Source of the DNA: Hydra vulgaris
Lineage: Eukaryota; Cnidaria; Hydrozoa; Anthoathecata; Hydridae
Assembly (NCBI RefSeq): GCF_038396675.1
Contig: NC_088922.1
Coordinates: 6,342,501 to 6,406,500 of the forward strand
Direction of reading: 5' to 3'
Length of the DNA: 64,000 nt
Made by a program: the position numbers and the translations under genes. The notes below the pieces were generated by a model that was given only the letters and a program-made list of their open reading frames with translations, had not been told where the DNA came from and did not search any database. Every line of letters starts with the position of its first letter. Positions within the stretch are counted from its first letter, which is position 1. Below are positions 19,637 through 31,901 of this stretch, piece by piece.

Positions 19637-20124
19637 TCAGTTAGTACACACCACACAACTTAGCTCCCAAGAATCTTTATAAGAATTTATACATGGCAAA
19701 ACTCCACATTTACTCTCGACGAAATGCAGAAACCCACCTTTTCCCCAATCTTTTGTGTCTTCAATAAAGTCTGGTTTTTGATCTACACATATATATTCTG
19801 TACGTTGCAAATATTTTTTTTGAGTCATAAGGAAGCCTTGATATTCTTTATACCATCCAACCGGACATTCAGTTACAGCTGGTATCATTAAAGTATTCGT
19901 ACGTTCTTTTACATCACACATTGAACAGAGCGCGTTAAAATATTGTCCTGTATATTTTGAATCAAATATGTCTGAATCTCCAAGTTCGAACTCCACTCCA
20001 TAAATAAAAGCACGTGACTTCGAATTAGATTCATTATCGTGCTTATCGTATTTGGGCAACACCGGCAAGCATAAGTAGTTTGAACCTCCTCCGTCTGAAT
20101 TATGGTATGAGCTTCCAACATAAC
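19637..20124 (-). CDS. Membrane collagen A, exon 7 (C-terminal domain and stop)
   Basis: 161 codons and TGA. It opens [19 protein letters not shown], then [56 protein letters not shown] and ends CVVCTN. Conserved cysteines and the GGGSNYLC box place it in the short-chain collagen C4-like family. Confidence 0.9.

Positions 20125-31901: not shown

Follow-up and report, generated by a model that had tools for sequence, protein, structure and literature searches.

Our analysis identified in Hydra vulgaris a putative collagen gene, here called gene A, which we regard, with moderate confidence and from its sequence, as a functional gene of the animal that encodes a type II transmembrane short-chain collagen, a resident adhesion receptor or ligand of the cell surface and not a released matrix component. 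The gene lies on the minus strand between 31901 and 19637 of the window, the 64,000-nucleotide stretch of contig NC_088922.1 (contig 3 of the genome) that was analysed; positions are those of the window unless a contig is named. Its seven exons are as follows.

31336..31901, minus strand: exon 1, with the start codon, the predicted cytosolic tail (residues 1-82), the membrane segment (residues 87-105, window 31643-31587) and the first part of the stalk; supported by the open frame, the donor, hydropathy, the exon of paralog B and dN/dS
25737..25891, minus strand: exon 2, with the rest of the stalk, a CAC cysteine pair and the start of Gly-X-Y block 1; supported by the frame and by a join kept in paralog B
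25084..25173, minus strand: exon 3, with more of Gly-X-Y block 1; supported by the frame
24663..24763, minus strand: exon 4, with the CDC break and Gly-X-Y block 2; supported by the frame
24475..24559, minus strand: exon 5, with the ESQITER break and Gly-X-Y block 3; supported by the frame
20227..20331, minus strand: exon 6, with the end of block 3, a CxxC pair (NGTCLSC) and the start of the C-terminal domain; supported by the frame
19637..20124, minus strand: exon 7, with the bulk of the C-terminal domain (likely spongin/NC1-like) and the stop codon; supported by the frame and by matches to the paralogs

Rebuilding these exons from the DNA gave one open frame of 529 residues, from the ATG at 31901 to the TGA at 19637, and each of the six introns starts with GT and ends with AG, which bears out the claim of an earlier note on this DNA that seven exons join without a frame error into a chain of this length. 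Exon 6 was started at 20331 because the acceptor AG at 20348 leaves no open frame (0 of 20 exon 5 starts gave one). With exon 6 starting at 20331, an exon 5 start at 24552 breaks the frame and 24559 works. Intron 5 contains a fragment of a DDE-superfamily transposase (21582-22043, minus strand; Pfam DDE_1, E=1.8e-7). On the plus strand of the window, an open frame of 138 residues matches RNA polymerase Rpb4 (10849-11265; Pfam, E=2.6e-22), an intronless one of 273 residues matches lysine methyltransferase family 16 (17676-18497; Pfam, E=1.1e-10), and one of 309 residues (16466-17395) has a weak SESTD1 spectrin-repeat match under the Pfam cut-off.

The product of gene A has a single segment hydrophobic enough for a membrane, residues 87-105, with a 19-residue mean of 2.71. 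The 15 residues before this segment include six K/R and no D/E, and the 15 after it two K/R and one D/E; the basic N-terminal side fits an N-in/C-out, type II orientation. By hydropathy, residues 1-40 contain no hydrophobic stretch. There is no signal peptide-like start, and neither the A nor the B sequence fits the secreted status that had been premised for short-chain collagens. The type II membrane helix proposed earlier is thus upheld by the single segment, its charges and the lack of a signal peptide-like start. Single-sequence AlphaFold modelled residues 80-154 as one helix, confident solely around the membrane part. The collagen part has Gly-X-Y blocks at residues 220-271, 281-301 and 309-336 (17, 7 and 9 triplets), interrupted by ECDCQFVYK and ESQITER, and the cysteine pairs C216/C218, C273/C275 and C338/C341 adjoin these blocks. 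The C-terminal domain has 193 residues and 12 cysteines. Collagen was the sole Pfam match to the product at E<=1 (E=3.4e-17). Together with the translation, this match agrees with the domain order given in the earlier note: anchor, stalk, three Gly-X-Y blocks with CDC and RESQITER breaks, and C-terminal domain.

A search of the genome (911.5 Mb, 15 contigs) with the C-terminal domain of A returned six matches at E<=1e-3. They fall at four loci, named A to D, and by sequence the genome contains at least four such related genes, gene A included. The membrane exon of A gave five matches at E<=1, two of them real, A itself and the first exon of B. B is a tandem paralog on the minus strand, with a last exon that begins 18 kb upstream of exon 1 of A and a locus of about 45 kb, the 3' half of which is inside the window. 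Its six exons encode 490 residues without a stop, and splice signals are present. The exons of B and the more distant loci are listed below.

Contig 3, 6436168-6436766 (outside the window), minus strand: B exon 1, the membrane exon
Contig 3, 6425637-6425788, minus strand: B exon 2, which starts RINYLE and has lost Gly-X-Y
58989..59092, minus strand: B counterpart of exon 4, CDC motif retained and Gly-X-Y gone
58818..58875, minus strand: B counterpart of exon 5, the sole remaining Gly-X-Y block (seven triplets including exon 6)
50119..50223, minus strand: B counterpart of exon 6, from the genome match and the assembled frame
49584..50038, minus strand: B counterpart of exon 7, lacking nine residues including two cysteines
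Contig 3, 11640369-11644116, plus strand: paralog C, one Gly-X-Y exon and the C-terminal domain
Contig 8, 38551688-38556688, plus strand: paralog D, a distant relative with a hydrophobic first exon and a short collagen part

No counterpart of exon 3 was found in B; part of the B locus reads N and may hide one. The seven-triplet Gly-X-Y block of B is below the Pfam cut-off. Judged from these exons, most of the collagen part of B is gone, and the tail, membrane exon, stalk and C-terminal domain are kept. Its membrane segment is flanked by four K/R before and by four K/R and one D/E after, which is not decisive for orientation. A B intron contains two open frames (55894-56945, minus strand), the upstream one with a helix-turn-helix match near the Pfam cut-off; they look like a mariner-type transposon.

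The link between exon 1 and the collagen exons is supported by paralog B. The first exon of B is 60% identical to the membrane exon of A, exons 1 and 2 of B have the same order, strand and phase as in A, and the residues at the join are identical (QR|INYLE). The doubt raised earlier as to whether exon 1 joins 25891 is answered, for the join, by this agreement. Exon 1 of A is open into its GT donor and meets a stop after only five further codons, and the A and B readings part ways past the donor. In a blastn comparison of the gene A region with paralog B, 16 alignments were found at E<=1e-3. One alignment each covers exon 1 (extending 34 bases beyond its donor), exon 2, exons 4-5, exons 6-7 and an upstream block, and exon 3 gave none at this threshold. 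The other 11 pair introns of A with non-matching places in B, 8 of them in AT-repeat stretches. The upstream block is

32038..32292, minus strand: a non-coding block that precedes exon 1 and has 64% identity by blastn to the corresponding place in B, possibly a promoter or 5' untranslated region

Codon comparison of A with B used 478 of the 529 A codons (95% intervals in brackets). The dN/dS of exon 1 was 0.35 over 188 codons (0.22-0.56). Within it, the tail gave 0.19 (82 codons, 0.09-0.41), residues 83-108 including the membrane segment 0.32 (26 codons, 0.09-1.02, an interval that reaches 1), and the stalk part 0.54 (80 codons, 0.26-1.04, again reaching 1). The stalk part in exon 2 gave 0.21 (27 codons, 0.06-0.97), the C-terminal domain 0.27 (186 codons, 0.17-0.43), and the collagen part, which is unreliably aligned, 0.65 (77 codons). 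Of these regions, the tail shows the lowest dN/dS and has 74% identity, compared with 66% for the C-terminal head, and the dN/dS intervals of tail and head overlap. On this comparison, exon 1 is coding sequence under purifying selection, tied by order, strand and phase to collagen exons in both A and B.

The membrane exon is clear in two of the four genes, A and B, and D probably has one. The first exon of D encodes a short tail, a hydrophobic segment at residues 20-38 and a stalk with the furin-type site RNKR, and ends in a phase-2 join, the phase found in A; since the segment is near the N-terminus, it could serve either as an anchor or as a signal peptide. In D, Gly-X-Y is followed by CDC, the same order as in A, and a long Ser/Thr/Lys-rich insertion lies inside the C-terminal domain. 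Shuffled sequences reached the A-D score 91 of 2000 times for the stalks, 95 of 2000 for the whole of exon 1 and 865 of 2000 for the tails; the B-D score was reached 1588 of 2000 times for the stalks and 1713 of 2000 for the whole exon. Sequence homology of the D first exon with those of A and B is doubtful, and these genes may have acquired or exchanged their anchor on more than one occasion. The coiled-coil score of the D stalk was reached by shuffles 7 and 5 times in 1000, whereas stalk coiled coils in A (284 and 225 of 1000) and B (185 and 137 of 1000) scored no better than shuffles. Candidates for a first exon of paralog C were inspected and none was convincing. Five weak matches elsewhere to the membrane exon of D (E 0.2-0.95) were rejected: four share one repeat-like open frame and the fifth has no comparable match. 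A weak match on contig 10 (E 0.098) contains one stop.

The C-terminal domain of gene A carries the motifs YxxWG, YSG, NYLCLP, MIPA, CPxxW and CVVCT, which we take to be those of the domain annotated as short-chain collagen C4. Gene A also has a short collagen part followed by this domain, and the HSQ motif is absent from A, B, C and D, although one plus-strand collagen IV repeat of the same genome also reads HSL. The available part of PMC5395295 describes spongin short-chain collagens as a short collagenous part and a C-terminal NC1-type domain in which HSQ is absent. An hhalign comparison with the genome's own collagen IV NC1 gave a weak match (E 0.0063, probability 6%, 41 columns), with the stretch from CxxC to CPxxW in register. 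The domain has 12 cysteines in A, 10 in B, 11 in C and 12 in D, two of the last in the insertion; these are totals, and the published spongin mark is seven cysteines common to collagen IV and three of its own. Pfam C4 did not match A at E<=1. In the genome it gave eight matches, seven of them above the cut-off and all seven at two collagen IV-type loci on contig 1. The C-terminal parts of these loci, at 17.935 and 17.884 Mb, are on opposite strands and face apart with about 50 kb between them. The motifs, the published criteria and the weak profile match to collagen IV give the spongin label, which is likely, indirect support. Searches of PDB sequences yielded one chance antibody match (E 3.7) with the single domain and none with a four-member profile. 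The AlphaFold model of exon 7 with its paralog was unusable (mean pLDDT 31.7), and a search by pattern matched viral contigs 18 times and prokaryote genomes 14 times, but not one of these matches was confirmed.

Other explanations differ in how well they fit these data. If exon 1 came from another gene, one for a membrane protein, and the start of the collagen gene lay elsewhere, the 5.4 kb between exons 1 and 2 would be accounted for, but the same order, strand, phase and join residues would not be expected again in B, nor an exon that runs open into a GT donor with a stop five codons later; we consider such a false joining extremely unlikely. It is very improbable that the C-terminal domain is an unrelated cysteine-rich domain and not a spongin/NC1 domain. 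The missing C4 match, the low probability of the collagen IV profile match and the lack of a PDB sequence relative would agree with that idea, and against it stand the short-chain collagen motif pattern, the registered cysteine motifs of the hhalign match, and the missing HSQ, as published for spongins (PMC5395295, available part). An alternative first exon with a signal peptide could give rise to a secreted version, the anchored form being minor. Intron 1, which spans 5.4 kb of gene A and 10.4 kb of B, has room for this, yet tblastx found no coding sequence common to the two first introns and exon 1 itself is constrained, and we judge the existence of two such forms improbable.

The protein could also be membrane-born but shed, its ectodomain cut free by a protease to become a short-chain collagen of the usual matrix kind. 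Furin release of this kind is known for transmembrane collagens such as XIII, XXIII and XXV (PMC4678570, in the part available), the stalk of D has RNKR, and the stalk of A has a KR pair at 170. However, A and B contain no R-X-K/R-R site and no RXXR in the stalk, their sole RXXR matches being in Gly-X-Y block 3 and the C-terminal domain, a result that covers furin-type sites. Shedding of A therefore seems rather unlikely to us, though less so than the other alternatives; D, with its RNKR, may be shed. Because the tail is conserved at least as well as the head and gene A has no membrane-near furin site, we prefer residence at the surface, as receptor or ligand, to shedding.

For a resident surface protein, by analogy with other collagens, three chains would meet through the C-terminal domain and wind into short triple helices toward the membrane, and interchain disulphides at the CxC and CxxC pairs would lock them. 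The heads at the C-terminal end of the trimer might stand a few tens of nanometres off the cell surface and bind mesoglea or a neighbouring cell there, and the conserved tail might couple this contact to an intracellular partner. If true, hydra, a simple animal, would hold on to its matrix in an unusual manner, through a short-chain collagen tethered to the membrane. Since the tail is conserved, a role in signalling could be put to the test. Gene tagging and knock-down are feasible in hydra. Lists of the matrisome may count membrane proteins among secreted collagens.

A membrane-tethered short-chain collagen would also be a second, separate route for collagen onto the cell surface. The MACIT collagens, found in many bilaterians, are reported absent from Cnidaria in the available part of PMC4678570, and the accessible literature treats short-chain collagens as molecules of the matrix. 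More tentatively, Hydra might have a transmembrane collagen line of its own, independent of MACITs, in which spongin-type collagens became surface receptors or ligands with a tail constrained at least like the head and a tandem copy in which the triple helix is largely gone but tail, stalk and head remain. Collagens of the membrane would in that case have at least two origins, one of them outside Bilateria.

Among the papers listed by full-text literature searches, whose reach did not include the founding family paper (Aouacheria 2006), none was seen to describe a short-chain collagen anchored in the membrane; we do not claim that the literature lacks one, and the protein of gene A may already be annotated somewhere. 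The spongin short-chain collagen family occurs in cnidarians (PMC5395295, PMC12549020, available parts), and the accessible text on the Nematostella matrisome gives four spongin-like proteins and does not mention a membrane segment (PMC12549020). In the portions available, PMC6626399, PMC6824150 and PMC3447736 refer to short-chain collagens or to the family paper but to no membrane form, and PMC10381214 uses the term short-chain collagen a single time, within a reference that concerns collagens VIII and X.

Like spongin short-chain collagens, gene A has a short collagen part and a probably NC1-like domain without HSQ; unlike them, it adds an N-terminal tail, a membrane anchor and a cysteine-paired helix of three blocks, and lacks a signal peptide-like start. 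Compared with collagen IV, of which the C-terminal domain is possibly a distant NC1 relative (a weak match), gene A has a much shorter helix, no HSQ and a membrane anchor, and the genome has two separate collagen IV-type loci. Colmedins (gliomedin, UNC-122) are alike in being type II proteins with a collagen stretch and a globular C-terminal head, but their head is olfactomedin (PMC7848082, available part), whereas gene A matches Collagen alone in Pfam at E<=1. The MACITs (collagens XIII, XXIII and XXV, and C. elegans COL-99) share with gene A a predicted type II orientation, interrupted triple helices and a non-collagenous stalk. MACITs are marked by a furin site and by conserved last 34 residues with two cysteines, and their tails are weakly conserved (PMC4678570, as far as available). 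In contrast, A and B have no membrane-near furin site (D has RNKR), the head of A has 193 residues and 12 cysteines, and the tail is conserved between the paralogs A and B.
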